DNA from: Beroe forskalii
Taxonomy: Eukaryota; Ctenophora; Nuda; Beroida; Beroidae
Reading direction: 5' to 3'
Length of the DNA: 64,000 bases
Assembly (NCBI GenBank): GCA_011033025.1
Contig: WFMF01000002.1
Location: 1-64,000, forward strand
Shown piece by piece: positions 14,541-62,142 of the stretch. Position numbers and translations under genes: made by a program. Position 1 is the first letter of the stretch, and each line of letters starts with the position of its first letter. The notes under the pieces were generated by a model. That model was given only the letters and a program-made list of their open reading frames with translations, did no database searches and was not told where the DNA came from.

Positions 14541-14707
14541 GTTTCTCTTAAATTCATTGTCAATTGTAGGTTACGTTGCGCGTCTGGTAGCTCCTGCTTT
14601 TCTGCGCGTTGTTTGACTTCTACCCACCTACACACATCAACTTGTCCCAGCTGACACCTAATACCTAACAAGCATCAACCTCCCCGAGTTTGCCAGTGAT
14701 CTTCATC

Positions 14708-17284: not shown

Positions 17285-17708
17285 ATAACTTCAGGAATTC
17301 TGAATGATTAAGTACTTTTTGTTATCTCGATGTATCGTTACAAAATTTTCTCTCTGTCATACAACTTCGTATGGGTAGCGGGATTGGGCGCGCTTCGTAA
17401 CTAATGCATTGATAAAATGGAAAACTGGTGTAAGCGTTTGCTAGCTCGTAGAGCTATTGCTTCCCCCAGTCAGCTAATTTCGCTCCTTCTTCGTCTTCTT
17501 ACAAAGTGCCTCTAACTCATCTTTTAATCTTTAAGTACTTAACTTTGTAAGAACATTTTTAAATTGGTCTCTATTTTTATTTTTTAGAGGAAGAGCGATA
17601 TGAAACTTTGATTGTAATCTATAATAAAATGATTATTTATTTATTTTATTTATTTTATTTATTTTTATTTAAATACCTAAGAGATTCCCTAGTTATGCAT
17701 ACCACCCA

Positions 17709-24875: not shown

Positions 24876-25350
24876 CCTCAGTATCACTATCAGAAACCCT
24901 TCCCTCAGTATATCTAAATACTCCCATCCCTCAGTATCACTATCAGAATCACTCCCATCCCTCAGTAATACTCATCAGAATCACTCCCATCCTCAGTACT
25001 CAGATGTCCAATCACTCATCCCATCAGTATCACTATCAGAAACTCCATCCCTCAGTATCACTTATCAGAGATCACTCCCTCAGTATCACTATCAGAATCA
25101 TCCCATCCCTCAGTATCACTGTCAGATCACTCCCATCCTCTAATTATCACTATCAGAATCCTCCCATCCTCAGTATCACTATCAGAATGCTCCCATCCCT
25201 CAGTATCACTATCAGAATCACTCCCAATCACTATCAGATCACTTCCCTCAGAATCATCCCATCCCTCGATATCACTATAAGAATCACTCCATCCTCAGGC
25301 ACTCACTATCAGAATCACTCCCATCCCTCAGTATCACTATCAGAGTCACT
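24876..25350. repeat. 31-bp tail array, WASF copy A
   Basis: About 15 units of the type CTCAGTATCACTATCAGAAT plus CACTCCCATCC. On the minus strand a unit reads GATAGTGATACTGAGGGATG then GGAGTGA, which encodes Asp-Ser-Asp-Thr-Glu-Gly-Trp-Glu-stop. The array thus looks like amplification of the acidic-tail coding end of the adjacent WASF exon. It matches 41650-42220. Confidence 0.9.
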
Positions 25351-25451
25351 GTCACTGTGTTGTCCTCCATCAGGTATTTGCGTCGCTGCAAGATCGACTG
25401 CGTCTTCCCGTAGGTTGCGTATGTTGGTTCAGGCTGCTTGTTCTTGGAGGG
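25284..25451 (-). CDS. wasf: WASF copy A, last exon (central/acidic region)
   Basis: The exon follows an acceptor reading AAACGTTTCAG on the minus strand. It starts in phase 0 and runs to a stop at 25284. Its beginning (PSKNKQPEPTYATY) and SILQRRKYLMED are shared with copy B at 42156-42332. Copy A lacks two codons and has lost the GKDVA that in WAVE proteins forms part of the Arp2/3-binding central helix (family form DVATIL). The acidic end is DGSDSDSE-rich but lacks the terminal Trp seen in copy B. It is separated from its WH2 exon by 11 kb of retrotransposon. Expression and function are uncertain. Confidence 0.65.
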   Translation of the reverse strand, partial: PSKNKQPEPTYATYGKTQSILQRRKYLMEDNTVTVTLIVILRDGSDSDSECLRME

Positions 25452-25908
25452 CTGAAACGTTTCAGGGTAGAAACAAACACAAAAACAAAACCAGAACCTT
25501 ATTGATTGTAGGTATGCTCTATCAGACTGAGTGGTAATTTGATCGTTGTTGCTTGTATTAACTTTGTATCCAGAATTGCTGATCAATCTACAAATCTTTG
25601 TGAGAGATATGCCACTAGGTCTATTCGTCTGGTAGAGTGAAATAACAAAAGAATTTGCCACCATCTCAGCTCTTCCCTACTAAGTGGAAGGTAGCTGCAC
25701 AGTGCTGTTTGAAGCAGCAGGTGGCTCTATGAGGAATTATAATATAGGTACACGTACTCTCATTACTTGTACTACTACTTTTAGTTGTAGCAAGGCTTTA
25801 ATGTGAATATAAAAGCGTTCACTGCCGTCAAATTAAAAGTATGAAATTTGGAGAGGTGCGTGATAGTGCCATGTCACGAGTGATTGTACCACGCGCGATA
25901 AAATTACG
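25452..25908. other. WASF copy A intron, left part
   Basis: Homologous to 42333-42980 in copy B. The 20-bp GTGATAGTGCCATGTAACGC array, with about 11 units in B, is represented by only about two units here (25858-25900). It ends at the LINE insertion. Confidence 0.75.
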
Positions 25909-26058
25909 CATTGTCAATTGTAGGTTACGTTGCGCGTCTGGTAGCTCCTGCTTTTCTGCGCGTTGTTTGACTTCTACCCACCTACACACATCAACTTGTC
26001 CCAGCTGACACCTAATACCTAACAAGCATCCTCCCCGAGTTTGCCAGTGATCTTCATC

Positions 26059-26910
26059 ATGTCTCAAAAGTCCAGGACTCAAGCAGTGAATACCCGGAGT
26101 AGGTCACGAGATGCTTCACCTTCAGCTCCCTCCAGCGTCCGTGGCAAGCAGCAGGTAACCCCCGGGGGCGACAGCCAGCCTAGGAGACAGTCAGCCGGAG
26201 TTCGACGTGGAGAAACTACTCAAGGAAACTGAGACATCCCTGCTGAAGCTATCGGAGGAGACCCCCAGCAAGCCATGATGAAGCTTCTGCTGCACATTGC
26301 GAAGACCCAGGATCAGATTCACAAGTCGCTACACTGCCACCAGGAGGACATCAGCCTGCTGAAGAAGGAGAACCGTGAGCTGAAATCAGAGGTGAAGTGC
26401 CTCTCCGAGGACCTGGTTAGGATGGATCAGTACTCAAGGAAGTCGGTGATGACGGTGACTGGACTCCGCTTCTCAGAGGGTGAGACTCCCGCCTCCCTGG
26501 AGACCGCAGTGATCAGCATGCTCAACGAACTGAGCACCTCATCGGGTAGAGCTGCGTTTACGAGGTATGATTTTTGTGCTATGCATAGGAACAAGAGGTC
26601 CAATAGACCCAGCGAGAGACCACCCACTATTACCGTTAAGTTTTTGAGATATACAGATAAGGACATGTTTTTTACTAAGACTGTTACTGCCCAAAGGAAA
26701 AGTGCTTTTCCTGGCGTTGGCTTTCACCACAACCTGTGTCCGCGTCTAATTGAGGAACAAAAACTTATTAGTGAACATAGTGCAGTAAAATTTGTGCAAT
26801 ATCAAGGATCTAATAGGTGGTTCTCTGTGTGTTTGAATAACTCCAATACGTTCTTAAACTTCATCAGATCCTACGATCATTTTCTGAGTGAGTTTGATAA
26901 TGAGTCTTGA
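26059..26910 (+). pseudogene. LINE ORF1 (coiled coil plus RRM-like nucleic-acid-binding protein), frameshifted
   Basis: The ATG at 26059 matches copy 1. The first part breaks in the 26150-26235 region, where indels relative to copy 1 shift the frame. The main part is open from 26275 to 26910. It contains a heptad-like LLKKENRELKSEVKCLSEDL segment followed by MDQYSRKSVMTVTGL, typical of the junction between coiled coil and RRM in CR1/L1-like ORF1 proteins, then a C-terminal domain. The product would bind LINE RNA. No zinc knuckle is seen. Confidence 0.75.
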
Positions 26911-27178
26911 TCTTGGTGTTTATTTTATATTTAAGCTATTGGATAGCATTAATAACAGTTTCTTATGCCTTACTGCACATTATAGTTCTACTGAAATGTA
27001 TGGATTTGATATTTCATCTGTAGTTTTAACAGTTTTTAACGATTTTCAGTGATATCTAGCATGTTAATCTTTAACATTCAGGCGTTTATTCAAGAGCCCC
27101 ATTGTACCATACGATTTTGTGAACAATTTTACGCGCTTTTGCGCGGCTCTCATGAGTGCTGAAAAGTCATTTTTATTT

Positions 27179-27385
27179 TGCTTTGTATTCATATTATTGA
27201 TTTTATTTCATAATATTTAACCTGAATATTTATGATTTTTCATGTTACTAACCAGTATATTTTCCTAGTGTTAGCGGTCCCTGCCTGGTGTATTTTGAGA
27301 TTGGATTAACCTAGTGTGCAATTTTATTCCTCTTTATCAACCCGTTGTTTTACGCTGTACTCAATCCAAGCTGAGCAATAAAGCA
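27179..27385 (+). repeat. 5' LTR
   Basis: Begins TGCTTTGTATTC and ends AATAAAGCA. The AATAAA near the 3' end may act as the polyadenylation signal. It matches 32092-32298 with only a base or two changed (for example TTTCATAA versus TTTGATAA). Confidence 0.95.
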
Positions 27386-27400
27386 ATGGCGACGTTTAAT
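27386..27400 (+). promoter_or_regulatory. Primer-binding site overlapping the gag start codon
   Basis: TGGCGACG starts at 27387, one base after the LTR, as expected for a tRNA primer site ending in CCA. The preceding A makes ATGGCGACG, which is also a plausible gag ATG (27386), so there is essentially no leader. Which tRNA primes is not determined. Confidence 0.65.
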
Positions 27401-28235
27401 ATTGAAGAACTCACGATAAACAGTGACGATCCAAGTATTGTTTCTAGACTGGATCGAGACTAGAACAGATGGTTACTATAGCCATCTTTAATGCTGCCTC
27501 AAATCTACCAGAAGAAGAAGCAGAGAAAACGGCTAAGATTGAAGAAATCAAGAAAAGCTACCTTCTTTCCAGCTTAGGAAGCAATGCTTACAAACTATTG
27601 AAGTCATACTGTGCGCCAGATTTACCAACAACGAAAACATTTGCTCAGCTATTGGAAATTCTGAAATCGAAACTTGCACCTGCACCAAATGCAGTTTCTG
27701 AACAGTACAGATTCAGCTTAATCAAACAAGAGGACAATGAAACACTTGCTGTATTCATGGGACGTATAAGGGAAGCAGCAGTTAACTGTGGGTTTGGAGC
27801 TTTGTATACGATGATGGTGAAAAACAAGTTCATTGGTGGTCTGAAATCTGAAAAAATCAGAACTGCTTTATTGTCAGACTGCAATGAAACTACGACATTG
27901 GACCAAGTGTATCAGAAAGCCGTTTTGAAAGAACAGGCTAGTCAATCCAATTCTGTGATGCATCCGAATAGCAGTGTTAATTCGGTTGGTCAAAGCCATT
28001 TACACCCAACTACAACAGGTCGGGTGGTAATGGAAAGAAACAGTTTTCACCTAAGCAGAACCACAGTTCAAACAGTACTCCGAAAACATCAGTTACGTGT
28101 GATAAGTGTACGCTGAGGGGTCATGTTGCTGCAAACTGCTTTACAAAATGCAGGTTTTGTAAGAAGCAGGGGCATATCAAGAAACAGTGCCCCAAGCTTC
28201 ATAAGAGGAATGCACACCAGGTCGGGACCAATGGA
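27386..28235 (+). pseudogene. Gypsy gag with two CCHC zinc knuckles, broken
   Basis: A short N-terminal frame from 27386 stops at about 27461. A capsid-like frame is open at 27469-28116. A further shift leads into two adjacent CX2CX4HX4C knuckles at about 28100-28190 (CDKC..H..C and CRFC..H..C). The knuckles are in the same frame as the protease downstream. Gag forms the particle and binds the RNA. The lesions mean no intact product is made from this copy. Confidence 0.85.
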
Positions 28236-28784
28236 GATGTTGATGGCATGGCTATGGGGAATGAATCAGATGGAGATGGCGGTATTGAGGTTATCGATCA
28301 TGGCTACGGATCAGTGGCTACGAATTACATCCACAGAGTGAAAGTCGCAGGTGATTCTGAAGAGATAAGTGAGCACGATGGTGAGTCGTGTGATTGTTGT
28401 TCAGTTGTGAACAAACCATTGAATCAGACTTATGATTCAAATTTTAACTCTTCAGAAACGATTGATTATAATTCTATTGCCTGCGACAATGATAATCATA
28501 TTGATTATAGTGTAGATGTTAATTCTGTGAATTTGAAATTAGGTAAACCATTCCTCAATGTTAAAGTCAATGGTAAACCATTGAAAATGGAACTGGATAC
28601 GGGTTCCACGCTATCTTGTATAAGTAAATCTGATTTTGAAAATTTGAAATTGGCCAATTGTAAGTTAGAAAACTGTACTGAACAGTTGTGTGTGGCTAAT
28701 GGCCAATTTGTTAATTCCTCATGCAGAGCCATCGTAGTTGTAGAATTCAAGGGTAATAGATACAGGTTGCCGTTATGTGGTTGA
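28236..28784 (+). pseudogene. Gypsy pol: protease region
   Basis: The open frame at 28248-28784 contains an aspartic protease active site DTGS (about 28596-28607) in the context MELDTGSTLSC. It ends at a probable 1-bp loss near 28780, just before the reverse transcriptase. Confidence 0.85.
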
Positions 28785-29640
28785 TGCTAGGTTTCCACCC
28801 TCTTGGGAAGGGACTGGATCCGTGTTATGATGGGGGGATGACTGGTTAACCAAGATGGTTAATTTGACTGTGAACCACGTCAAATCCAGGAAAGAGTTCG
28901 TTGAGTCCATCAAACACAGCAGTGTGTTCGATCCAGGTGTTGGGGAAGTCAAAGGATTTGAGGCATCGCTAGACCTCAAACCAGATGCGAGGCCGAAGTT
29001 CTGTAAGGCCAGACAGATCCCGTTTGCTATTAAAGATTCTGTCGGTGAAGCTATCGATAAGTTGGTCGAGTCAGGTTTATGGAGGCCAATTAGCTTCTCA
29101 GAGTACGCATCACCCATAGTGCCAGTTAAGAAAGACGATGGAAGCATCCGGCTCTGTGGCGACTATAAGACAACCGTTAACCCCAACATTGATACCACAG
29201 TCTACCCTTTACCCTCCATGGAAGATTGTTTAGCTGAATTGGTCGGAGGAGAGTTATTTACCAAGCTAGACATCAAGCAAGCATACAACAACTTGCGACT
29301 ACGAGAGTCTGACCAGCTGTTAGTAGCAGTTAATACGCACAAGGGATTGTTTGCACCAGTCAGGTTACCCTATGGAGTGAGCTCAGCTGGAGCCATATTC
29401 CAGAGGAAGATAGACCAAGTTTTACAGGGTATACCAGGTGTGACTTGTAGAGTGGATGATATTTGCATTACTGGGCCAAACGATGAAGTTCACATGAAGA
29501 GTTGAAGAGGTTGGTTGTGGACAGGCTGGCCGAGGCAGGATTCCGATGCAGAGTTGATAAGTGCAAGTTCATGCAGCCATCCATCACCTACTTGGGACAC
29601 AACGTGAGTGGACTGGGAGTCAAGCCATTGAAGTGTAAGA
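28785..29640 (+). pseudogene. Gypsy pol: reverse transcriptase
   Basis: The main frame is 28855-29505, with the fingers and palm blocks in order and a catalytic box reading VDD (canonical YxDD or FxDD). The domain continues in another frame after about 29500. The Val at the first position of the box, plus the frameshift, argue that the enzyme is dead. Confidence 0.9.
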
Positions 29641-30300
29641 GTTGATACAATCCTGCAAGCTAAGTACCTAGAATGCCTCAGAGTTAGTGTCGTTCTGGGA
29701 GCTGCACAATATTACTCTCCTTCATCCCGGACATGTCAACAGTTATAGAGCCTTTGAACAAGCTGAGATCAGAAGAATTCTTGGAAGTTCGGTGTGGAAG
29801 GAGAGCTGACAGCTGACGAACTAAAGAAAGACTGGCATCGAACAGAGTGTTGACATTTTACAACAGCCTTACCTGTCAAGTTGGATGCTGACGCCAGTAA
29901 ACACGGATTGGGAGCAGTGTTGAGCCATGTATATCCTGATGGTACAGAAGCCAGTCAGATTCATATCAAGGACCCTGGTAAGAGTGAACGCAATTATTCT
30001 CAGATTGAAAAGCATTGTCGGTGTGGTCTATTAAACGGTTCCATCGTTACCTGTTTGCTAGAAATTCACCTTGGTGACAGACCACAAACCCTTGAGTTCA
30101 TCTTCCATCCACGCAAAGGGAATACCAGAGATGGGCGTCAGTCGCATCGTGAGATGGGCGTTGTTCCTCAGCTCATACCAGTACGACATCATGTTCCGAC
30201 CCACTGGTAAACATGCCAATGCTGACATGTGTTCCAGATTCCCGCTAGAGAGCCAGGAGACTGAAGAATTCGACTCAGGAGAGGCAACAGCTCTGGTGTT
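29641..30300 (+). pseudogene. Gypsy pol: RNase H
   Basis: DADASKHGLGAVL (from about 29881) is the typical RNase H start in Gypsy elements. VTDHKPL near 30071-30091 and a later HANADMCSR motif (about 30210-30240) lie in different frames, showing at least one frameshift. Confidence 0.85.
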
Positions 30301-30539
30301 TACAGTTTCGTTAGTGATTCCGAGGCATCAGTTCCATCTTCACAGTGCACTATCTGGGAGATGATGTACACTCTTTTGAATTCAGAGGACATAGCAGGAC
30401 ACACACGGAAAGACCCAGTGCTAAAGTAAGGTTTTGCATTTCATTAAAGAAGGCTGGAGCGAAAAAGGAAGACCGGAAAAGACGATTTAAACCGTACACG
30501 ATGAGAAGAACTGAATTGTCAGAAGATTCAGGTTGTGTC

Positions 30540-31310
30540 TATGGGGATCAAGAGTAGTGATTCTAGGACGTTGCGTGGTAACATACTTGAGCTACTGGCA
30601 CGCACATGGGAATAGTGTCTATGAAGGCATTAGCCAGGAGCTTTGTTTGGTGGCCCGGCTTGGATGCTTCCATTGAACACACATCCCATTGCATGCAGTG
30701 TATGCCAGTTGAACCAACAAACCTCGAAGTCTGTGCCCCCATCCATGGGTTACTCCCAACGGTCCGTGGGAGAGAATCATCTGGATTTTGTGGTCGATCT
30801 TTGGCCACATGTGGATGGTGGTGATTGATGCGTTCTCAAAGTGGATAGAGATTGTGCGGATGTCGAATATTCAGGCTGCAACAGTGATTCAAAATTTGAG
30901 AACCTTGTTTGGGAGATACGGAATACCAGTCTGCATGGTATCGACAACGGACCACAGTTAACAAGTCTGGAGATGGCGAGTTTCACCAAGAAGAATGGAA
31001 TAAACCATATTTATTCCAAGTTGCCATCCTGCGAGTAAGCTTTGCTGAAGGCCTTGTAGGGAATTTCAAAGAGCAATCAGAAGATGCAGATGAGTAAACA
31101 GGACTTGATGGGTAATGTTGCTCGTTGGCTATTGATGTACCCGAAACACAGTCCACCCTGCTGGGAAAGAGCCAGCAGTGGCGATGCTTGGAAGACGAAC
31201 TCGCAGTGCATTCAGCATTCTACACCCCGCTGAATCAGCCAGAAACAGACATGTACACAGTCAAAGAAAGTGATCAGCAAGGAGCGGACAAGCAGGCAGT
31301 TCGGTGAAGG
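30540..31310 (+). pseudogene. Gypsy pol: integrase, heavily broken
   Basis: Short frames carry pieces of the zinc-binding N-terminus (an H-x-x-x-H-like stretch and CMQC-like Cys pair near 30690-30710) and the catalytic core (VVIDAFSKWIE near 30815-30850 and a following GIP...D segment). The frame changes several times. Confidence 0.75.
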
Positions 31311-32091
31311 AGAGAATCATGTATTGGGATGAGCACCATAAGACTTGGTACAGAGGCGTCATAAGCGGATTGGAAGGCTCAAAAGATGTTCGTGATTGAG
31401 GAGAGGAATGGTAAGACACGCAAACACCTTGACCAGGTTGTCAGAGTGTTCAACGGATCAGGACACCTTGCCCAGGAAGAGCAGTCTTCTGCTAGGAACC
31501 TACTTACCAAACCACCACACAGCACGGTAATCTTGAGCATGAGCACATGGCTTTTGATTTAATGAACTAACGTGATAACCTGTCACTGCATTACCTGATT
31601 GCAAATCATTCTAACACTCAAATTCCAGCTAAACCTGTGATTGAAACTACCGGGATTTGCCTGCGAACTAGCACTAGAATTAGCAACCAGTTGATCGGCT
31701 GGAATATTCTAAATTAGGTGGGTAAACGGTTTAATCTTGTTTCCCTGATCTGAAGTATCAATAAGGGAAATTTAAGTCAAGAAACATTTTAATTGTGTGT
31801 TTTTAAAAGATTTATAACAGATTTACAACTCACGTTGTATGTGAGATCCAAGTATTTATTATTTCTGAATTGTGGCATTTTGCGCGTTTTGGCAATTTCT
31901 TGTATATTCGGAAGGCGCACAGATAATATTGTAATGAAATTTACCATTAATTGTGGTTTATAACTTATTTTAACGCCGCGCACGCGAGTGGTAATTAAAA
32001 ATTTTGGTATTTGTTATGATTTTCGAGGGCAGACCGCAATGATAATACTTTGCTCAATGAGTAAACTCAAGCTTTTTTTACAAGGGGGAGA
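31311..32091. other. 3' internal region of the Gypsy element and polypurine tract
   Basis: No convincing open frame; an integrase C-terminal end may decay through 31311-31500. The polypurine tract (about 32082-32091) primes plus-strand synthesis in this family. Confidence 0.6.
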
Positions 32092-32298
32092 TGCTTTGTA
32101 TTCATATTATTGATTTTATTTGATAATATTTAACCTGAATATTTATGATTTTTCATGTTACTAACCAGTATATTTTCCTAGTGTTAGCGGTCCCTGCCTG
32201 GTGTATTTTGAGATTGGATTAACCTAGTGTGCAATTTTATTCCTCTTTATCAACCCGTTGTTTTACGCTGTACTCAATCCAAGCTGAGCAATAAAGCA
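32092..32298 (+). repeat. 3' LTR
   Basis: Same 207-bp sequence as 27179-27385. It is followed by the TATTT target duplication and then LINE spacer DNA. Confidence 0.95.
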
Positions 32299-32959
32299 TA
32301 TTTTCCTCCCCATAACCGGCCTTTCAGTAATTAATTGCTAGATTCTTCCCCGTACTTGTTTATCTTATTTCTGACTGCATTGACATCAATTACATTTGAC
32401 CATTTACACACCACTTACCACTCTTAATCTAATTAGCTCTCTCCATCCAATGTTCACTATTTACTACTGCAACTTTCTGTAACCCTGCATTCGCGCACAT
32501 TCCATCACAAACACTTCGTACACTGTGACGTACCAACAGTCTATAACTACATTCCACCACATACGTACACTGTGACACACTCACCATTCAGGGGTACATT
32601 TTCGTACATTGTACATTGCACATCAGGAGTCAACTGCACTCCCTGCTTCACCTTATGTCTGATAACATTATCGATATCACTTTTTTAGGTTTTAGTTTCT
32701 AAATTTTGAGCCATTTTTCTTTGACTTAAACTCTTGAATTGAATGCCTGACGGTTTAATTGCTGTGATCACTCCTTGAAGTAGCAAGAGATAAATAATGT
32801 TTATTATATGAAGCTAGATAGATTGGTTTCAGGTGCTTGGTTAATGTTCAAATTCCATCTCAATGTCTTACCACACGTATTGTGTGCCTTCTAATTTTAA
32901 TGGACTTATTATTGAACATTCTTTGCAAACTCGGGGTAGGTTGAACTTTGCTATTCTGT

Positions 32960-35900
32960 ATGAATAAGGACAGAAACGACAGTAACGATACGTCGAGAAA
33001 TACTGACAATTTTGTTGAATTTTATAGAGAGACAACCTCAGATGGCTCAGATCCCAGTAGACCGCACTTTCCCAGACTACTCAACAATTGTATTGATACC
33101 TTTGATAACTATAACATTGAGAGTTTTAATGCAAATATCAAGGTTAACTCAGATGACCTAAGTGTTCTTAATCTAAATGTGAGGGGGATAGCGTCAAACT
33201 TTGATAATTTTATTACTTGGCTTAATTCTCTCGATTTGAAGTTTGACGTTATAATCCTTACTGAGTGTCACATAGACAACGAAAGCACCGATAAGAAAAG
33301 TATAGAAAAATTGTTTCCAATATCTGGTTATAGTAAGTTTTATGTTATCAGTAATATAAAATTTGGTGGAGTGCTGATTTATGTAAAACATAGATTTGAT
33401 GTCGTAGAAATCCCGAACTGTACTGGTAGTGACAATACAGCGGACATATGTTCTTTATTAATCAAAGATAGGAGTTGCCTTAACAATAAAAGTAATTTTT
33501 CAACGACCATTTCCGGTATTTATAGGCACTGTAAGAAATCTAGTGTAGATGTGATTAACTTTATAAATAAAATGGATGATTACCTCGGTAAAATTGGATC
33601 CAATAAAACTAAGTCAATTGTTGCTGGTGATTTTAATATCGATCTTATAAAATCCGTCTCTAATAATGACTCCTTGTGCTTCTTGAATACATTTCTAATG
33701 CATGAATTTGAAAATCATATTTTCAAGCCGACAAGGGTGCAGTTCTATAAAAATAGTCTACAGGTTCGCTCTGCCACTCTTATTGATCTAATATTAACTA
33801 ATTTACATGAGTACGACTGCACTGCTGGGAACCTGTTATATCCTGACTCTGACCACCATGCCACATTTACCATACACAGGAAATGCCTTGATGGCACTGG
33901 TAATAGTAGTGATGATGTATTTCGTAGGAAAATTAATGATATTGAGGAAACTAAGCTACAAGATGACTTTAATAACTATGACTGGGAAAGGCTGGTTTAT
34001 CAAGAATCTAACATTGACACTGCTGTTGATAACTTAATAGATACACTGCAAACTCTACTTGATTCACATGCACCTCTAGTTAAGATACCGGCAAGACGTG
34101 TTAAATACTGTTACAAACCGTGGATAGATAAGGAACTTCGCGAACAGATAGCTGAGAAAAATAGATTATTTAGTATCAAATCCTCCATTCCAACTGAAAC
34201 AAATCGTGTTAAATTTAAGAAGTATAATAACTTTGTCACTAATGAACGTAGAAACAAAAAGAAATGTTATCTTAAAAACTATTTTACTAAACATAGGCGG
34301 GATTCTTGTAAAATGTGGCAAGGTATTAACTTCGCACTTGATTCTACTAAAGCAAGAAAACAGATGCCGTTAACCGTAAAAAACGTGAAAAATGAACTCA
34401 TGTCTGACCCACAGACTATATCGGACAGTTTTGCTGAATACTTTGAGGCGGTACCTGAAAAAACTAGATCTAAAATACATCCGCCTTTAACTGAAGATAA
34501 CAAGTACCTAGATCATTTACACAAGAACAGACCAGTAGATAGATATCTTATATTAGAGGATACGAATAGCTACGAAATAGGGAAATTGATTAAATCTCTT
34601 AAAGATAGAAGTAGTCCAGGTCCATTAGTTATACCAAATAAATTCATTAAGATGCTTAACTCAACTCTATCGCCTATAATGGCACACTTAGTTAATATCT
34701 CCATGAGAACTGGTTATGTACCCCTACGTTTTAAAGTTGGTAAACAAACCCCTGTTTTTAAAGAAGGTGAAGTACGAGTCAATAATTTTAGACCAATAAC
34801 AGTATGCAATAGTCTTTCTAAAATTCTTGAAAAAGTAGTGCGAGATCGGCTTTTAGATCATGCTAAAGAATGTAGAATCTTGACTACGTCACAGTATGGT
34901 TTTAGAAAAAAACATAGTACCGTTCATGCCATGATTAACCTGCTAGATACCACATTAGAAGCTCTAGACCAAGGCCTTAAAACTGGGAGTATTTTTCTTG
35001 ATGTTAGCAAAGCTTTTGATGTAGTTCCTCACAGAATACTTTTACGTAAACTAGAATATTATGGTGTAAGAAGTAATGCTTTGATGTGGTTTGAATCCTA
35101 CTTATCTGACAGGACGCAATATGTTGCAGTAAGAAATAAAGCATCTAAAAATATAAAAATCTTTTTGGTGTTCCTCAGGGAGGAACCTTAGCGCCAATTC
35201 TTTTTATCTTATTTATGAATGATATCATTAACAGTTCAAATCTGCTCGATTTCTCAATTTATGCTGATGATACCTGTGTTATGATTTCAGTCTCGAGATC
35301 AGAATATGATAAGACCATAAAATGCGAACTCGGCAAGGTATTTCAATGGTTTCACTCGAATCAAATGCTTACTAATGTAGATAAAACAGGATATCTCTTC
35401 CTAGGGCCCAATCCTCATAAAGTATATGTTAAAGGTGAGATTGATCTCTCCGATCTTCATTCTGTAGCACCTGATTATCTATTTAGTACTGATGACCCAG
35501 TAGACCCTGATCATCGAATTGTTAACTCTAAGGGAGAATTTGTACTGCATGAGCTACACAAGATATGCCCGAAGTACATCATAGACGAATTTATAGAATT
35601 AGACGATGGTACAATCATATATGAAAATGATGTAATCAAGTATCTCGGCATTCACTTTGATAGCTCGTTATCGTTCCGAAAACAGACTTCTTTAGTATCA
35701 TGTAAAGTGAACAGAATGGTAAATGCCTTTTGGAAAATGCCAAATATAGGAATCTCAACTAAAAATTGATTTACCACAGTTTAGTTGAATCTCACCTGAA
35801 TTATGGAATTGTTATTTGGGCTTCCTCCTTGAGTAAAAATGTACTGTCCGATTTCTTCAATGATAATATTCCAAATAATCTAAAAAACGTAAAAAAATCG

Positions 35901-36302
35901 CAAAACAAGGTTATTAGAGCCATTTTCCGTCTCCCGAAATTTGATAAAAGCAAACAAGAATATACTAATATGGCCGATCTTTACAAGAAGTTAGGGGTCC
36001 TTAAATTAAGAGATCTGTACTGGTTTAACATAGCCACCACTTGCTACGAATATTTTTACAATAAGGAGTTTCCCGAAAAACTGAAACGTAATTTCACTAA
36101 AAAGAGTGATATGTATTCAATCTCCACCAGGACAACTGGAATGGATCTATACTACAAATGTCCTAAATTAGTTAGCACTTATAAAAAACCAAGTCTATGT
36201 GGGTCTGCATTCTGGAACTCTCTACCAATAGCACTGCGAGAATCACCGTCGCTTTCCGTTTTTAAGGATAAATTACGATCTTATTTTCTGGGAAAGTATT
36301 AA
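32960..36302 (+). pseudogene. LINE ORF2: AP endonuclease and reverse transcriptase, two frameshifts
   Basis: I choose the ATG at 32960; the frame upstream uses TTG. The endonuclease domain is complete: LNLNVRG, ILTECHI (catalytic Glu), VAGDFNID, DLILTN and SDHHATF in order, about 33160-33870. The reverse transcriptase follows, with FRPITVCNS, the FLDVSKAFDVVPH block and YADD at 35260-35271. The frame breaks in an A-run near 35150 and again near 35765, both one A shorter than copy 1. The C-terminal segment is open at 35766-36302. The product would nick target DNA and copy the LINE RNA onto it. Confidence 0.9.
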
Positions 36303-37408
36303 ATAACTTCAGGAATTCTGAGTGATTAACTACTTTTTGTTATCTCGATGTATCGTTACAAAATTTTCTCTCTGTCATACAACTTCGTATGGGTAGCGGG
36401 ATTGGGCGCGCTTCGTAACTAATGCATTGATAAAATGGAAAACTGGTGTAAGCGTTTGCTAGCTCGTAGAGCTATTGCTTCCCCCAGTCAGCTAATTTCG
36501 CTCCTTCTTCGTCTTCTTACAAAGTGCCTCTAACTCATCTTTTAATCTTTAAGTCCTTAACTTTGTAAGAACATTTTTAAATTGGTCTCTATTTTTATTT
36601 TTTAGAGGAAGAGCGATATGAAACTTTGATTGTAATCTATAATAAAATGATTATTTATTTATTTATTTATTATTTATAAAAAGGTGCAAATTATCCGTTG
36701 ATCTTTCATTCTTAACTTACATAATACACAGAAAGCATTGACAGTTGATCATGATATATGGTTATTATAGTTCTCCAAAATCTCGCACATTTAAAACGTT
36801 ACATTTTGTTTGTTTATGTGAAACATTTTAGTGCGGTAGTCACTCCAAGAGGTGATAACAAAATGTATAGGTACATGTTTACTGATCTTACTTTGTTTTG
36901 ATTCGAATATTTGATGTTTATTTTCATCAACATTTTCAGTACTACAGCACAAAGGTGCTGCAAAATAGTCAGCCATGTCTCAATACAATTAGTGGAGAGG
37001 TAAGTAAACAAGCCCATAATCTCATGTGTTAAGGTGTTACAAGGTACATGTTACAGGTCTCCATGGCAGAAAGGGATACATGAGGTTAAAAATATTGCAG
37101 ATTGAATGTGAAATAGAAATTTGATGTGTGATCATGAATACTCAGCAATGCTAACTCACTAACACAAAGAAAATAAGTTTTGTTTATTGTATACGGCTGA
37201 TGGCAGGGATGAATGCTGAAAAGTTACTTAGTAAGCAGAAATATGGGGCTGTTGCGGGCAGTTCCGGGGGAGATCAGTATACCATTTAGAAATTAGAATT
37301 CTTATGAACATCCGTGAACATGCGAATTATTTGATATACAGCTGATGTAAACTTCGAAGTTCAATACGATCTGGGGATCCTTCATATCTCGAAATATGTG
37401 ACTTTTGG

Positions 37409-40103: not shown

Positions 40104-40214
40104 TAGAAACCGAGACAGAATTGAGACACTCACCACAGGAGACAGAATTGAGACCCTCACCACAGAAGACAGAATTGAAACACTCACCACAGGAGACAGG
40201 ATTGAGACACTCAC
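40104..40214 (-). repeat. 27-bp splice-donor array after WH2 exon, copy A (4 units)
   Basis: Read on the minus strand, the exon end AACATG is followed by GTGAGTGTCTCAATCCTGTC plus TCCTGTG, repeated four times, so a consensus donor (GTGAGT or near) recurs every 27 bp. The frame stays open, and each unit would add nine residues of the VSVSILSPV type. Copy B has two units. Confidence 0.85.
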
Positions 40215-40405
40215 CATGTTCCTAGAACCGACGGGTTTCAGACTAAAGCTGCTGGATCGAATCATCTCCAACAGGACATCCCTATCCCGGGCCTGGGGCA
40301 CGACGTTCGTTCTCAGGACTCGCTGCATGGGCGTCAGTTCGGGAGGCTTGATGGCAATGTCAGGAACCGGTGGAGGCAGGAAGGGGGGCGGGGAGTTCTC
40401 CGGTA
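40215..40405 (-). CDS. wasf: WASF copy A, proline-rich end and WH2 exon
   Basis: 191-bp exon with acceptor CTTCTTCAG and donor GTGAGT on the minus strand. It encodes a PENSPPPFLPPPVPD proline stretch, then RDVLLEMIRSSSFSLKPV, which fits the WH2 actin-binding pattern LLxxIRxxxxLKxV of WAVE proteins. Six nucleotides differ from copy B (47888-48078) and all six are synonymous. It begins with 2 nt of a split codon and ends in phase 0. The bound partner in the family is actin monomer, delivered to Arp2/3. Confidence 0.8.
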
Positions 40406-40605: not shown

Positions 40606-40737
40606 ATTTTTTGGCTGAAGGAGGGGCAGTTTTCGGGAGAGGGGGAGGAAGAGTGGGAGGGAGAGGAGGAGGAGGGGGAGCAGACGATGGTTTGGGTGGC
40701 TTCAACTCCAACGAGATCTGATTCACGTCCACGTGAT
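40606..40737 (-). CDS. wasf: WASF copy A, proline-rich exon
   Basis: 132-bp exon starting after a CTCTCAG-type acceptor and ending at GTGAGTTG. It encodes HVDVNQISLELKPPKP followed by a run of prolines (APPPPPLPPTLPPPLP), the profilin/SH3-binding type region of WAVE proteins. Both differences from copy B are synonymous. Enters with 2 nt and leaves 1 nt, matching its neighbours in phase. Confidence 0.8.
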
Positions 40738-41359: not shown

Positions 41360-41640
41360 GCGCTAAGTGGTGTCAGTAGAGACATACCATGAGTGGTTGT
41401 AGGGGTGGTGTCAGTAGAGACATACCATGAGTGGTTGTAGAGGTGGTGTAAGTAGAGACATACCAAGGGTGGTTGTAGGGGTGGTGTCAGTAGAGACATA
41501 CCATGAGTGGTTGTAGGGATGGTGTCAGTAGAGACTTACCATGAGTGGTTGTAGGGGTGGTGTCATTAGAGGGACTTACCAGCAGAGTTGGTTGTAGGGG
41601 TGGTGTCAGTAGAGAGGACATACCATGAGTGGTTGTAGGG
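41360..41640 (-). repeat. Splice-donor-bearing 38-bp array, copy A end (about 7 units)
   Basis: Same family as 49145-50590, here with GTATGT as well as GTAAGT donors. The array ends abruptly at the duplication junction (TTCCCTAAAAG at about 41641), immediately followed by the copy B tail array. The exon that should precede it is missing in copy A. Confidence 0.85.
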
Positions 41641-41649
41641 TTCCCTAAA

Positions 41650-42220
41650 AGATCACTATCAGAATCACTCCTCATCCTCAGTATCACAGAATCACTCCTC
41701 ATCCTCAGTATCACTATCAGTATCACTACCTCCCATCCTCTCAGTCACTATCAGAAACACTCCCATCCTCACAGTATACCATCAGAATCACCCCTATCCC
41801 TCAGCATCACTATCAGAATCACTCCCATCCTCAGTATCACACCAGAATCACTCCCATCCCTCAGTATCACTATCAGAATCACTCCCATCCCAGTCAGTAT
41901 CCTCACTATCAGAATCACCCCATCCCACAGTGTCACTATCAGAATCACCCCCATCCCTCAGTATCACTATCAGAATCACCCCATCCCTTCAGTACTATCA
42001 GAATCACTCCCATCCTCAGTTTCACTATCAGAATCACCCCATCCCTCAGTATCACTATCAGAATCACCCCATCCCCTCAGTATCACTATATCAGAATACT
42101 CCTGCATCCCCGCATCACTATCAGAATCACTCCCATCCTCAGCATCACTATCGAGTCACTCCCATCCCACAGTGTCACTATCAGTACTTTCACCATCATC
42201 CCTCAGTATCACTATCGGAG
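41650..42220. repeat. 31-bp tail array, WASF copy B
   Basis: About 18 units of the acidic-tail-derived repeat, matching 24876-25350. The first units overlap the coding end of the last exon (stop at 42156). Confidence 0.9.
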
Positions 42221-42332
42221 TCACTGTAATCACTTTGTCTTCCATCAGGTATTTGCGTCGCTGTAAGATGGACGCCACATCTTTTCCCGTGTAGGTTGCG
42301 TATGTTGGTTCAGGCTGCTTGTTCTTGGACGG
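42156..42332 (-). CDS. wasf: WASF copy B, last exon (central and acidic regions)
   Basis: 177-bp coding exon: acceptor AAACATTTCAG, phase 0, then PSKNKQPEPTYATYTGKDVA, SILQRRKYLMED and an end reading DDGESTDSDTVGWE-stop. GKDVASILQRR corresponds to NDVATILSRR-type central regions of WAVE, which bind Arp2/3 with the acidic tail and its tryptophan next to the C-terminus. The gene's main stop is most likely here. The residues between MED and DDGE (VITVTPIVIL) are unusual and hydrophobic for an acidic region, and may reflect an old frame slip in the repeat. Confidence 0.8.
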   Translation of the reverse strand, partial: PSKNKQPEPTYATYTGKDVASILQRRKYLMEDKVITVTPIVILRDDGESTDSDTVGWE

Positions 42333-47832: not shown

Positions 47833-47887
47833 GAAACCGAGACAGAATTGAGACACTCACCACAGGAGACAGAATTGAGACACTCAC
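47833..47887 (-). repeat. 27-bp splice-donor array after WH2 exon, copy B (2 units)
   Basis: Same unit as 40104-40214. Two donors (GTGAGTG) stand 27 bp apart right at the exon end. Confidence 0.85.
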
Positions 47888-48078
47888 CATGTTCCTAGAA
47901 CCGACAGGTTTTAGACTAAAGCTGCTGGATCGTATCATCTCCAACAGGACATCCCTATCCCGGGCCTGGGGCACGACGTTCGTTCTCAGGACTCGCTGCA
48001 TGGGCGTCAGTTCGGGAGGCTTGATTGCGATGTCAGGAACTGGTGGAGGCAGGAAGGGGGGCGGGGAGTTCTCCGGTA
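47888..48078 (-). CDS. wasf: WASF copy B, proline-rich end and WH2 exon
   Basis: 191-bp exon with the same protein as copy A: PENSPPPFLPPPVPDIAIKP, a linker with MQRVLRTNVVPQA, and the WH2 motif RDVLLEMIRSSSFSLKPV. It starts with 2 nt of a split codon (completing the T left by the upstream exon) and ends in phase 0, joining in frame to the 42332 exon. The acceptor is preceded by a 21-bp polypyrimidine unit repeated three to four times (48093-48168), of which copy A has about two and a half. Confidence 0.82.
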
Positions 48079-48092
48079 CTGAAGAAGGAGGG

Positions 48093-48168
48093 TGAAGGGG
48101 TTAAAGAGGAGGGGTAAGGGGTTAAAGAGAAGGGGTAAGGGGTTAAAGAGAAGGGTAAGGGGTGAAAG
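48093..48168 (-). repeat. 21-bp polypyrimidine-tract repeats before the WH2 acceptor
   Basis: On the minus strand, TTACCCCTTCTCTTTAACCC-like units are repeated just upstream of CTTCTTCAG. Copy A (40420-40475) has fewer, diverged units. They multiply the acceptor's pyrimidine tract. Confidence 0.8.
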
Positions 48169-48378
48169 ACTTAAGTGTCAGTTAAAATTAAAGACCGTAC
48201 TTCATCAGAACTGTAAACTTGTAAGGACTTAAGGAGCAGGGGGCCAAAGAAGTGCCGCAGAGCGTGCTGTGATGCTAGTAGCAAACATTTTAAACCCGAA
48301 TTTCAATCACAAAAATAGGTGTTATAACCCTAAGAGGACCTCTCACTCCTAATTCACAAAAAGCTCATTTCAACTCAC

Positions 48379-48510
48379 ATTTTTTGGCTGAAGGAGGGGC
48401 AGTTTTCGGGAGAGGGGGAGGAAGAGTGGGAGGGAGTGGAGGAGGAGGGGGAGCAGACGAGGGTTTGGGTGGCTTCAACTCCAACGAGATCTGATTCACG
48501 TCCACGTGAT
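48379..48510 (-). CDS. wasf: WASF copy B, proline-rich exon
   Basis: 132-bp exon, acceptor ACTCTCAG, donor GTGAGTTG. The protein is identical to copy A. The AT at its start completes GAT with the G left by the 50591 exon, and its final T joins TA of the WH2 exon, so three exons chain in frame. Unlike most neighbouring exon edges, these two edges are not arrayed. Confidence 0.82.
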
Positions 48511-49144: not shown

Positions 49145-50590
49145 TAAGCGGTGTCAGTAGAGACTTGCCATGAGCGGTTGTAGGGGTGGTGTCAGTAGAG
49201 ACTTACCATGAGTGGTTGTAGGGGTGGTGTCAGTAGAGACTTACCATGAGTGGTTGTAGGGGTGGTGTCAGTAGAGACTTACCATGAGTGGTTGTAGGGG
49301 TGGTGTCAGTAGAGACTTACCATGAGTGGTTGTAGGGGTGGTGTCAGTAGAGACTTACCATGAGTGGTTGTAGGGGTGGTGTGAAAGAGTGGGTAGGTGG
49401 TTGTAGTAGAGACTTACCATGAGTGGTTGTAGGGGTGGTGTCAGTAGAGACTTACCATGAGTGGTTGTAGGGGTGGTGTCAGTAGAGACTTACCATGAGT
49501 GGTTGTAGGGGTGGTGTCAGTAGAGACTTACCATGAGTGGTTGTAGGGGTCGTGTCAGTAGAGACTTACCATGAGTGGTTGTAGGGGTGGTGTCAGTAGA
49601 GACCTACCATGAGTGGTTGTAGGGGTCGTGTCAGTAGAGACTTGTGGGGTGGTGTCATGAGTGGTTGTAGGGGTGGTGTCAGTAGAGACTTACCATGAGT
49701 GGTTGTAGGGGTGGTGTCAGTAGAGACTTACCATGAGTGGTGTCAGTAGAGACTTACCATGAGTGGTTGTAGGGGGTGGTGTCAGTAGAGACTTACCATG
49801 AGTGGTTGTAGGGGTGGTGTCAGTAGAGACCATGAGTGGTTGTATGAGTTGAGTGGTTGTAGTAGGGGTGGTGTCAGTAGAGACTTACCATGAGTGGTTG
49901 TACGTAGAGACTTACCATGAGTGGTTGTAGGGGTGGTGTCAGTAGAGACTTACCATGAGTGGTTGTAGGGGTGGTGTCAGTAGAGACTTACCATGAGTGG
50001 TTGTAGGGGTGGTGTCAGTAGAGACTTACCATGAGTGGTTGTAGGGGTGGTGTCAGGTGGTGCCAGAGACTTACCATGAGTGGTTGTAGGAGACTTACCA
50101 TGAGTGGGGGTGTCAGTAGAGACTTACCATGAGTGGTTGTAGGGGTGGTGTCAGTAGAGACTTACCATGAGTGGTTGTAGGGGTGGGGTGTCAGTAGAGA
50201 CTTACCATGAGTGGTTGTAGGGGTGGTGTCAGTAGAGACTTACCATGAGTGGTTGTAGGGGTGGTGTCAGTAGAGACTTACCATGAGTGGTTGTAGGGGT
50301 GTCAGTAGAGACTTACCATGAGTGGTTGTAGGGGTGGTGTCAGTAGAGACTTACCATGAGTGGTTGTAGGGTGGTGTCAGTAGAGACTTGCCATGAGTGG
50401 TTGTAGTAGGGGTGGTGTCAGTAGAGACTTACCATGAGTGGTTGTAGGGGTAGGGGTGGTGTCAGTAGAGACTTACCATGAGTGGTTGTAGGGGTGGTGT
50501 CAGTAGAGACTTACCATGAGTGGTTGTAGGGGTGGTGTCAGTAGAGACTTACCATGAGTGGTTGTAGGGGTGGTGTCAGTAGAGACTTAC
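49145..50590 (-). repeat. 38-bp splice-donor array, about 38 units
   Basis: The minus-strand unit is CTCTACTGACACCACCCCTA plus CAACCACTCATG then GTAAGT: the last 32 nt of the adjacent exon plus the first 6 nt of its intron. Thus the intron opens with about 38 further copies of the same exon end and consensus donor, with small deletions in some units. Using a later donor adds 38 nt per unit, which changes the frame except every third unit. Copy A keeps about seven units (41360-41640). Confidence 0.92.
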
Positions 50591-50917
50591 CATGAGTGGT
50601 TGTAGGGGTGGTGTCAGTAGAGGTTTGGGAGGTAGTAGTAAGGGGCGTGCTGGTACACTGGTGGTACGTCCTACTGTTAGGGTCCGCAGGAGCGACAGCT
50701 GCAGACGGAGGTGAGAAGTAGCCGTCCTGGGAGGAGACGGTAGGGGACCGGGATCCGGGATCAGGGGACAGAGCTGAAATAGAGAGGAGTGAGGGATCAG
50801 GGGACAGAGCTGAAATAGAGAGGGGTGAGGGATCAGGGGACAGAGCTGAAATAGAGGGGAGTGAGGGATCAGGGGACAGAGCTGAAATAGAGGGGAGTGT
50901 GGAATCAGGGGACAGAG
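50591..50917 (-). CDS. wasf: WASF Ser/Pro/Thr-rich linker exon with acceptor-bearing 36-bp repeats
   Basis: Ends CATG before GTAAGT at 50590. Its start can be the most upstream acceptor (CTCCTCTTAG, exon to 50917, 327 bp) or any of four further acceptors TCTATTTCAG spaced 36 bp, the last giving an exon to 50773 (183 bp). All choices keep the same frame, because 36 bp is 12 codons of the ALSPDPSLPSIS type. The unique part reads PTVSSQDGYFSPPSAAVAPA then a TTTS-rich end. It leaves 1 nt, in phase with 48510. No domain is expected here in WAVE. The join to the upstream exon is one phase off, so a small exon may be missing. Confidence 0.7.
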
Positions 50918-51519
50918 CTAAGAGGAGAGATAGAATTAGCTAGTTAGAAGGGACCAGGAAAGAGGGTGCTTGGATACAGAGTCAGGGTAGAGATGAGTTC
51001 TAGGTTGAGACCAAACAAAGGTTATAACCGGATGAGAGAAAGCGTTGAGAGATGGGGTGAGAAAGAAACAGAGTAGTCAATTGTGAAGGAAGAAAACATT
51101 CTAACATCCAATTATCGAATTAACCATGGAATTGATGGAACAATAAGTGCATGAGCAAGAATTGTAACCGATATCGTGGAATAACTATTATTTTTCTTTT
51201 TACGTTAGCTTGGCTGTATTTCAAGTTTTATCATAATAGGCAGTAAGTCTTAGATCACTTATTATAGCTTATAGCTATAATATTGTACTATTGTAGCGCT
51301 GTAATTAAAGAATCCTCACAAAACTAACACAGTACAAAATCTGGAAGAAAACCTGGTGAATACTGAAGCCCTGAATACAGAATACATGCTGGAATTTCAG
51401 AGCAATAAGTCAACTTTATCTTATCAATGCAGTGTGTCATGATTCCATGATTCCACTGACAATGACCGAATTATAACCTTGAGCCTCATGATGCAGAAAC
51501 ATAACTCGAAGGGATTAAC

Positions 51520-51578
51520 CTGCTGAAGGTTTGGGGTCTCCGTATTTCTTGCGGTTGAGGGGATGACTATTGACTAAC
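51520..51578 (-). repeat. Duplicated exon end with second donor
   Basis: The last 38 or so nt of the 51579-51705 exon (CTCAACCGCAAGAA...) plus donor are repeated once about 59 bp downstream, ending in GTTAAT. This is another exon edge copied into its intron. Confidence 0.8.
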
Positions 51579-51894: not shown

Positions 51895-52093
51895 GTTTTG
51901 CTCTTTGGATCGTGAACCTTCTTCTTCAAGGTGGCTATCTTTCCAGCTGGGTGGTCTTCCTTGGACCTCTTGAAGGATCTCTTCCTGGCCTTCTTGAACT
52001 GCTCGCTCTCCTTCTCCATAAGATCTACCCAGGCGTTGAAGAACAGAGCAGGATCGGAGTAAAGTTTGTGAGGATGTGACATGTTGGGATAGA
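51895..52093 (-). CDS. wasf: WASF exon: end of SHD and basic region
   Basis: 199-bp exon. LYSDPALFFNAWVDLMEKE corresponds to the very conserved FYTDPSYFFDLWKEKM block of WAVE proteins. It is followed by a Lys/Arg-rich basic stretch (KKARKRSFKRSKE, then KKKVHDPKSK) that binds phosphoinositides in the family. This is the strongest single piece of evidence for WAVE rather than WASP. It leaves 2 nt at donor GTAAGC, in phase with the next exon. The upstream join to 53288 is off by one nt. Confidence 0.8.
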
Positions 52094-53287
52094 CTAAAGC
52101 GAAAAAGTCGGAATAAGTTGAATAGGTACCTCCAATGACCCATCCCTTGCTGTCTCTTTCACCCGTTTTCTTATTATATGCCCCAGGCCCATACGGCTAT
52201 GTGGTAGCAAATGATTACGTCGTCTTTGAATGCACGTATTTTTCTTGACATGTATGCCATTTGTAACACAGAGTCCAGAGATATGGACGGATAAAATCAC
52301 AGCACTTCTGTACTGTGGTTTGTAGATTGAAATAATTTACGGGAGCATGTGAGCATAGTGCGTTTCAATGGTTTTACGATCTATACCATTTGCAATATAC
52401 CTCTATAATCAGCTAGTTATGCAACGCAATATTATACCTCACATTCTCAGCTCATTAATATTAAGTGGAGCGTGTGATATAATGTATAATCAGGTGGCTC
52501 ATATTATCCTAATACCTTGGGATCAATGGTAGAAATGATTCATTATTGAGTGTAGGTATACAACAAAAGCCCAAGTGTACGTGTGTACACTGCATTCAAA
52601 TATCTATATGATCAGTTCATGTAATGGTGTCATGTAAGTATGTTAACGTCTGTATGAACTATGAGTGTATACAAAATAAAATTAAGGTATGCTTCTGAGA
52701 CCTGTTCATACTGCCAATATATAGCTATCCAACAGCGTATGAGAGTATGATGTATATTATGTACGCAGCAAGTATGTTAGTTGATAGAAGGGTTGATCTA
52801 GAGTAGCAGAGCCATAACAAGAGCTGGTCCATGTGTTCAAGTGTTGTATGTTGTGTGTAAAGGTGTTGATGGCATATTAATATATTCCATAGTGCAACAT
52901 CAATAATATGTATACTGCCGTGTATTTATTACAAGTCAGGAGTAAATAAGTCAGGAATTGGTACTGAAGTTGATATGTGGTACTGAAGTTGATAGGTGGT
53001 ACTGATAGTTGGTACTGAAGGTGATATGTGGTACTGATGGTTGGTACTGAAGTTGATAGGTTGTACTGATGGTTTGTACTGAAGTTGATAAGTTCATAAA
53101 GGGATGAGATCATGTTTGAGTCGCTCAACCCTCAGGGGATTAGGTTTTTGTAATTGGTGGTTGAGTAATGAGTATCATTGAGTAACTATCTGACGTGATA
53201 CCTTTTACGAAAAATCTTGCATTCTTGCAAACAAAATACTTAAAATGAAAGTGCAAATGTCAGATTGAACTCGTTGTTTGAACTTAC
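52094..53287. other. WASF intron with a minisatellite
   Basis: 52961-53095 holds alternating GGTACTGAAGTTGATA and GGTACTGATGGTT units. On the minus strand each has a TTCAGTACC acceptor-like core. Otherwise AT-rich. A small missing exon could hide here, judging from the phase mismatch of its flanking exons. Confidence 0.55.
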
Positions 53288-60834: not shown

Positions 60835-62142
60835 GGAGAGGAGACGGCTAAGTCTGCAGACGACATCATGGAGGAGATCTACAAACGTGTCCTGGACGAA
60901 AACAAGTCCAAAATCCAGGAGAGATTCCCGGATCAAGCCGATGTGATCCTGGCCCACGAAGACAAGGACCTTCTGCAGAAATACCTGGATCACACGTACT
61001 GGTCCTTCTTCAGGAACAAGTTCACGTGGAAGGTGGGAGCAGACGATCATGTCCCTCTCAAGAGATTCTCAATGGAAGCCTTGCTGATCATCATGGGGTA
61101 CTCACATGGGTGCATCATGATGATGAAGAGGACCTTGGGATTCCTCCAGGACATCCTGTCAGGAGGGAACGCAGGGTCAATCCTGCAGGATCTCATGACC
61201 TTCAACATAATCTGGGATCGTCTGTACCAGTTTAAGAAGGGCTGGGGTCAAATGATCAAGAAAATGGTATCATCCATCAAGAAACAGAGTGGAACAAATG
61301 GTGTCGAGGTAGAGATGGTTAAACAATGCGAAGTACAAAGAATAACCACTACTGACGGTGGTTTCCGCCTGGAATTTGACGATCACAGAGTGGCCGTGAA
61401 GCGGCTGATCATGACACTACCCCCAGCTGCAACGGAAAAGATCATCGACATGGAGGACACAGACGACCAAGAAGATCTACAGGAAATCTGTCGCTCTGTC
61501 ATTGGTTTTGAAATGACGAAGATCAACCTCTACTTCAAAGACGACTGGTGGAACAGAGTGGAGGGAGTAAAGATGTTCGGGCCTAATATTACCAGCCTCC
61601 CATGTGCATTCATATACCCCTTCTACGCTGAATGCAAGAAGAATGGGTGTGAAGGATGTGAGAAGTGTCAGAACGATGAGTGCCCTGCAGCCCTAACGAT
61701 CTACGCAGACATCAAGAATTCCCAATTTTGGAGTGGACTGCAGATTCTAGGCTCCAAGTTCCATTCACCGCTACAGAGACGCCACAAAGACTTCCTCGCT
61801 GCATCGGAAGCTGTGGTCAACGAAGCACTGAAACAGTTCAGGGAGGTTTTTAACATTGAGGACATCCCCCAACCCATCCTCACGAGTTACAGGTGCTGGG
61901 GAGGCATGGATCTCTCAACTGCTGACCCACAACCCAACGCCAACTTCGGATACGGTGTCCACATGTGGCGGATTGGGGTGGACGACTATAAGATCCGGAA
62001 GAAAGTGGCTAAACCCTTCCAGAATAAGCACCTGTACATGTGCAATGAGGCGTGGAGCGAGTACCAGAGTTGGGTGGAGGGCTCACTGCTGTCCACTGAG
62101 GCAGCCATGAAGAAGTTCTTCAAGGACCTACAAGCTGAATGA
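60835..62142 (+). CDS. Flavin amine oxidase / L-amino-acid oxidase-like protein, C-terminal part
   Basis: The frame is open from 60835, just after a TAG that can serve as an acceptor AG, through an ATG at 60868 to the stop at 62142. The in-frame upstream residues GEETAKSADD read naturally into MEEIYKRVLDENKSK, so I treat it as a 3' exon of a longer gene rather than a protein starting at the ATG. It has the substrate-domain helices, RLYQFKKGWGQMIKKM (the hydrophobic G-x-G/W-x block), and near the end NKHLYMCNEAWSEYQSWVEG, which matches the FAD-binding C-terminal motif of the family (aGE..s...GwveGA). The N-terminal GxGxxG domain is absent in the window. A cysteine-rich insertion lies at 61627-61680. 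Confidence 0.75.
   Translation, partial: GEETAKSADDIMEEIYKRVLDENKSKIQERFPDQADVILAHEDKDLLQKYLDHTYWSFFRNKFTWKVGADDHVPLKRFSMEALLIIMGYSHGCIMMMKRTLGFLQDILSGGNAGSILQDLMTFNIIWDRLYQFKKGWGQMIKKMVSSIKKQSGTNGVEVEMVKQCEVQRITTTDGGFRLEFDDHRVAVKRLIMTLPPAATEKIIDMEDTDDQEDLQEICRSVIGFEMTKINLYFKDDWWNRVEGVKMFGPNITSLPCAFIYPFYAECKKNGCEGCEKCQNDECPAALTIYADIKNSQFWSGLQILGSKFHSPLQRRHKDFLAASEAVVNEALKQFREVFNIEDIPQPILTSYRCWGGMDLSTADPQPNANFGYGVHMWRIGVDDYKIRKKVAKPFQNKHLYMCNEAWSEYQSWVEGSLLSTEAAMKKFFKDLQAE

Follow-up and report, generated by a model that had tools for sequence, protein, structure and literature searches.

Minisatellites whose units span exon-intron boundaries, termed "mirages", have been described at 5' as well as 3' boundaries of amphioxus exons, among them those of Adh3 and of the globin genes BflGb6 and BflGb9 (PMC3087553). 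The lancelet PGBD5 gene is described as similar to mirages, and troponin C is named as well (PMC3902484). Published units measure 10-160 bp, a globin mirage has 6 units on one haplotype and 3 on another, mirages were compared across alleles, individuals and tissues, and intron gain by duplicated AG/GT proto-splice sites is also discussed (PMC3087553). Mirages are said to leave regular splicing undisturbed (PMC3087553, PMC3902484). Here we analyse a window of 64,000 nucleotides, which forms the start of a 2.26-Mb contig (WFMF01000002.1) of the ctenophore Beroe forskalii (genome of 216 Mb in 1134 contigs) and carries on its minus strand the WASF (WAVE/SCAR) gene, whose exon 7 is flanked on both sides by tandem arrays of its own splice sites. 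These arrays are probably opportunistic minisatellites of the mirage type that sit on exon-intron boundaries, with most copies being passengers and splicing using the innermost pair of sites. A human minisatellite in an interferon-induced transcript reportedly provides multiple splice donors, going by the title of a study by Turri from 1995; the gene is presumably G1P3/6-16, in line with the subject of a paper that cites the study.

The joined exon translations matched human WAVE1 chains in the PDB (best E-value 4.8e-9), and a named WASF3 relative was matched at 2.8e-6. Pfam returned no match for either of the two WASF pieces searched, and the identity of the gene is therefore based on WAVE1 and the WASF3 relative. 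A genome search (18 candidates scored) gave 12 WASF matches, every one on the contig of the window; judged by these matches, this is the sole WASF gene that the search turned up. Arrays were called with Tandem Repeats Finder (TRF), and exon numbers follow our own gene model (Table 1).

On the minus strand, exon 7 ends in CCACTCATG followed by GTAAGT at 50591, and TRF called the donor array at 38.3 copies with a score of 1879. An earlier note on this DNA had spoken of about 38 repeats; the large array stands, and the exact count is 37 donor-like sites of the form CATG/G[TC] (slashes mark splice positions, and exon 7's own site is counted), with an intact GTAAGT at 33 of them. Perfect 38-mers make up 21 of the units, and the spacing between neighbouring donors is mostly 38, ranging from 24 to 86. 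With up to 4 mismatches allowed, a 24-mer across the exon 7 donor has 34 recurrences in a stretch of 1600 nt. On the opposite side, the acceptor array (TRF 4.5 copies, score 291) places exon starts directly after CTATTTCAG at 50881, 50845, 50809 and 50773; a weaker fifth acceptor, CTCTTAG/, was read by eye near 50917, and the junction 24-mer of the exon 7 acceptor has 3 further copies. Among the splice sites put to the junction 24-mer test, recurrence is confined to the acceptors and the donor of exon 7 (random control 304/1500, a value that the arrays themselves inflate). Consensus splice sites are multiplied in both arrays (33 GTAAGT donors and four CTATTTCAG acceptors), as had been proposed from the letters of the sequence.

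These arrays share the anatomy of the amphioxus mirages, in that tandem units run across exon-intron boundaries. Their units of 36 and 38 bp are of minisatellite size and contain splice signals; they consist of exon end plus intron start, or of intron end plus exon start, which supports the mirage reading. Two differences are that both boundaries of WASF exon 7 are arrayed, and that one of them carries 37 donor-like sites, compared with 6 and 3 units in the globin mirage. Proto-splice-site intron gain likewise draws on duplicated segments with splice signals as raw material, but no new intron is shown in WASF. The lineage differs, too: CCT5 of this genome is 74% identical to Branchiostoma, compared with 88-92% to its nearest relatives. 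Among the best 120 of 7251 matches, the closest full-length relatives stand at 92, 92, 89, 89 and 88%, and named animals (sponges, cnidarians, Branchiostoma, vertebrates) at 62-76%; these distances argue strongly against amphioxus as the source lineage. The human minisatellite resembles the WASF array in that, by its title, a minisatellite multiplies a splice donor; the human donors are by title provided in the transcript, whereas the outer WASF donors would truncate the protein.

The supposition that no such case had been described does not hold for the kind of array, since amphioxus mirages are published, as the accounts in PMC3087553 and PMC3902484 state. An exon arrayed on both sides, or a mirage outside amphioxus, was not found in the open-access literature, where most search results were judged without full reading. 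One candidate report (PMC9071541) was set aside, as "mirage" there is the name of a transposon. The present findings extend boundary-spanning minisatellites from amphioxus to a distant animal lineage and to several genes of one genome.

To follow the consequences for the protein, exons 7-10 were joined by script in the frame implied by the downstream exons and by P0018, a homologous protein of 466 aa with 77% identity across the whole query; all frame effects and truncations given in this text refer to that frame. In silico, donor 1 yields the full C-terminal part, whereas donors 2-37 (36 of the 37) lead to a premature stop, always with a truncation of identical length. The frame is kept with each of the four acceptors, every unit adding 12 residues. 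The joined exons confirm the earlier note in that acceptor choice preserves the frame and donor choice shifts it. Its suggestion of many isoforms fails on the donor side: as 36 of 37 donors truncate at one length and a single product is full-length, no protein repertoire arises there. The acceptor side could add short steps of 12 residues to the protein. The P0018 alignment corresponds to the last acceptor and the first donor, with no extra units, and its longest contig (2532 nt) is far shorter than the WASF gene, so that P0018 probably derives from mRNA. This alignment points to the innermost pair as the ancestral junctions and is at most indirect support for regular splicing, without showing which sites this animal uses.

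Boundary arrays also occur at other genes of the genome. One myosin gene region (L055) carries an acceptor array with a 34-bp unit (TRF 8.1 copies; 30 of 78 myosin matches were cut out), another (L068) a donor doublet with a 22-bp unit, and a CCT gene an acceptor array with a 31-bp unit. Two CCT paralogs lie in inverted orientation on one contig and are identical at 2797 of 2981 aligned bases, and they differ reciprocally, with 4 versus 1 acceptor units and 1 versus 3 donor units; use of outer sites there would shift the frame, the units being 31 and 37 bp long. At eight homology-supported boundaries the units measure 36, 38, 27, 59, 34, 22, 31 and 37 bp, and since only 2 of the 8 lengths are multiples of 3, there is no frame logic.

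Several observations border on these cases. In two further myosin regions (L053 and L073), 16-bp arrays of 17.2 and 54.5 TRF copies lie about 20 nt or less from the 5' edge of the exon without spanning the acceptor; sequences that resemble branch points may be multiplied in them. At G000:C1:1948118-1949179 (L020-L029) lies a long array whose units, each of about 30 bp, repeat the donor GATCAAG/GTAAGT. Possible further cases are L017 and L019, where open frames end at donor arrays, and L046, with an array by a putative exon; these three are excluded from the counts, and two short translations from such cases (L017 excluded) gave no PDB match and no Pfam match above the cut-off. The motif CCCTCGTGTTTCAG, considered as a mobile acceptor repeat family, is present in two unrelated arrays, yet only 15 times genome-wide, and was rejected.

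A mirage-type origin would proceed as follows. Short tandem duplications seem to arise often in this genome, and one of them may have been seeded on an exon-intron boundary, spread outward into the intron, with unequal exchange or slippage as the means of growth. Function would be demanded only of the copy adjoining the exon body, so that the outer copies would be nearly neutral, free to multiply and decay, and the array would expand into the intron. Splicing most likely joins acceptor 50773 and donor 50591, since the shortest exon is the one that exon definition favours; at times, acceptor units further upstream may be used, and outer donors, if used, would bring in the premature stop. On this view, array length is predicted to be unstable and splicing mostly regular, with products of outer donors being rare. 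Where paralogous copies were compared, copy number differed, namely in CCT and in WASF, where the last exons are tandemly duplicated (24875-48510) and the two copies hold 37 and 5 donor sites; the duplication may have taken only part of the array. Substitutions in the large donor array affect 7 of 226 GTAAGT letters versus 17 of 1224 other letters (Fisher p 0.08), and in the second, shorter one 5 of 42 versus 7 of 224: the donor letters are not preferentially retained. Exon 7, bordered by 33 identical consensus donors and, at its other end, by four identical acceptors, constitutes a natural experiment on spliceosome site choice, and the CCT paralogs provide matched pairs with and without extra units.

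In the myosin sample (30 of 78 matches), 6 of 60 exon edges have an array no more than 20 nt away; of 480 flank positions 39 do, and of 30 mid-exon positions none. Edges are homology edges and not verified splice sites, and arrays with a period below 10 are excluded. Arrays are about as frequent at exon edges as in flanks, with no enrichment over the latter. For CCT (23 of 45 matches in four stretches, and 6 in the paralog), arrays were near 1 of 46 edges and none of 23 mid-exon positions, and near 2 of 12 edges in the paralog. Genome-wide, triplets of the acceptor motif TTTCAG gave 6302 matches, compared with 7290 for the permuted CTTGAT and 1087 and 1910 for the reversed controls, and thus fall within the range of controls. 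All triplet counts are matches rather than arrays, so that long arrays weigh heavily, and they use one permutation per motif; the donor count given below is uncorrected for the frequency of the single motif. Taken together, the counts speak mostly against a genome-wide enrichment of splice motifs in arrays.

Several points weigh against arrays of passengers around regular splice sites. Among 33 identical strong donors in one intron, competition would be expected. Exon 6 as assembled, when joined to exon 7, is out of the P0018 frame, and so it is when extended to its second donor; the equation of donor 1 with the full-length product therefore presupposes that frame. Either the assembly is in error at exon 6 or, should it be correct to the letter, the gene is disturbed there. 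The donors of exons 6 and 9 are looser cases, with 0 recurrences in the strict junction 24-mer test, and the edge counts vary between the CCT gene and its paralog. Finally, triplets of the donor motif GGTAAGT count 2266 genome-wide versus 493, 1056 and 1009 for the controls (2.1-4.6 times commoner), an excess which could hint at more than chance; the single motif is also commoner than its controls in sampled sequence (121 versus 46, 21 and 25).

The uniform truncation by 36 of 37 donors, the four in-frame acceptors and the 33 intact donors would suit a switch in which use of any outer donor cuts WASF short ahead of its actin-regulating C-terminal end, and array length together with splicing factors sets the amount of active WASF. 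Such a switch is unlikely, given that the donor letters are not preferentially kept, that unit lengths at other boundaries lack frame logic, and that like arrays occur in CCT and myosin genes, where a switch is less plausible. The more specific form, a length-tunable off-switch in which dozens of identical donors lead to one truncated WASF opposite in-frame acceptors, we consider quite improbable; if true, array length would be a heritable and possibly somatic dial on the output of an actin regulator.

It is equally doubtful that the arrays generate a family of WASF isoforms with variable linker length. The acceptor array is open in the exon 7 frame at 12 residues per unit, but only one full-length product comes from the donor side, which leaves a contribution from the acceptor side only, and P0018 carries no extra units.

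Binding of U1 snRNP (small nuclear ribonucleoprotein) to donor sites can protect transcripts against premature polyadenylation. The tandem donors might form a reservoir that recruits U1 along the intron, guarding it in this manner or strengthening exon definition, and the 33 consensus donors within about 1.5 kb as well as the donor-triplet excess over all three controls fit this idea; yet the lack of preferential retention of donor letters and the need for a separate reason for the acceptor arrays make it very unlikely. No less improbable is an assembly artefact, with sequencing errors that inflate or scramble the array: exons 6 and 10 disagree in frame with P0018, which suggests errors at the level of single bases, but a second array of the 38-bp unit with its own variants lies in the WASF gene, the comparison of the CCT paralogs looks biological, as do the partial and variant units, and the contig measures 2.26 Mb.

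Table 1. Features of the WASF locus in the window (all on the minus strand)
Feature	Position	Strand	Basis
Exon 7 (WASF linker exon), 183 nt in its minimal form (last acceptor to first donor)	50591..50773	-	junctions, frame, P0018 coverage
38-bp donor array; unit: final 31 nt of exon 7 plus GTAAGTC	49150..50622	-	TRF, site counts
Acceptor array of 36-bp units (12 codons each) with four CTATTTCAG acceptors; open in exon 7 frame	50757..50919	-	TRF, site positions, translation
Exon 6, donor CAG/GTTAGT; end as assembled out of frame relative to P0018	51579..51705	-	sequence, translation
Second copy of exon 6 end, donor-like CAG/GTTAAT, 59 nt further on	51520..51578	-	sequence
Exon 8, poly-proline	48379..48510	-	translation
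21-bp tandem repeat adjoining exon 9 acceptor	48090..48169	-	TRF
Exon 9	47888..48078	-	translation
27-bp unit, two copies at exon 9 end, GTGAGT donor in each	47839..47892	-	read by eye
Exon 10, central-acidic end, stop inside 31-bp array	42156..42332	-	translation; end coordinate by hand
31-bp array over acidic tail and beyond	41652..42225	-	TRF
Shorter second donor array, TRF 7 copies; five CATG/G sites (four GTATGT, one GTAAGT)	41367..41640	-	TRF, site count
Exon 8 duplicate	40606..40737	-	self-comparison
Exon 9 duplicate	40215..40405	-	self-comparison
27-bp donor array of exon 9 duplicate, 3.9 copies	40112..40216	-	TRF
Duplicate of exon 10 start, conserved C motif altered	25362..25454	-	sequence comparison

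The shorter donor array was absent from the account of the earlier note. Between the two copies of exons 8 and 9 (the latter of which we take to be WH2-like), 8 synonymous and 0 non-synonymous differences fall in 106 codons and the protein is identical, which suggests that both copies are constrained; gene conversion is also possible. WASF may accordingly possess two alternative 3' cassettes. After YLMED, exon 10 leaves the P0018 frame in its acidic end in both cassettes (42156-42332 and 25240-25454). The ends of a segment inside the second cassette (25909-36677) match 14555-17662 in two pieces of 96 and 99% identity, a pattern as from insertion of a mobile element with a shortened second copy. 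The duplicated exon 6 end, read alone, fits P0018 better than the exon 6 end itself, reflecting either sequencing error or decay. The intron between exons 4 and 5 (52068-53287) starts with GTAAGT and seemingly ends in AC, and is flanked by the 9-nt direct repeat CATCCTCAC.

On the plus strand, positions 60868-62142 hold an amine-oxidase-like open frame of 424 residues. Its relatives mostly have about 530-610 residues, and the frame is therefore probably the last part of a gene. The best named relative is from Mnemiopsis leidyi, at 47%.
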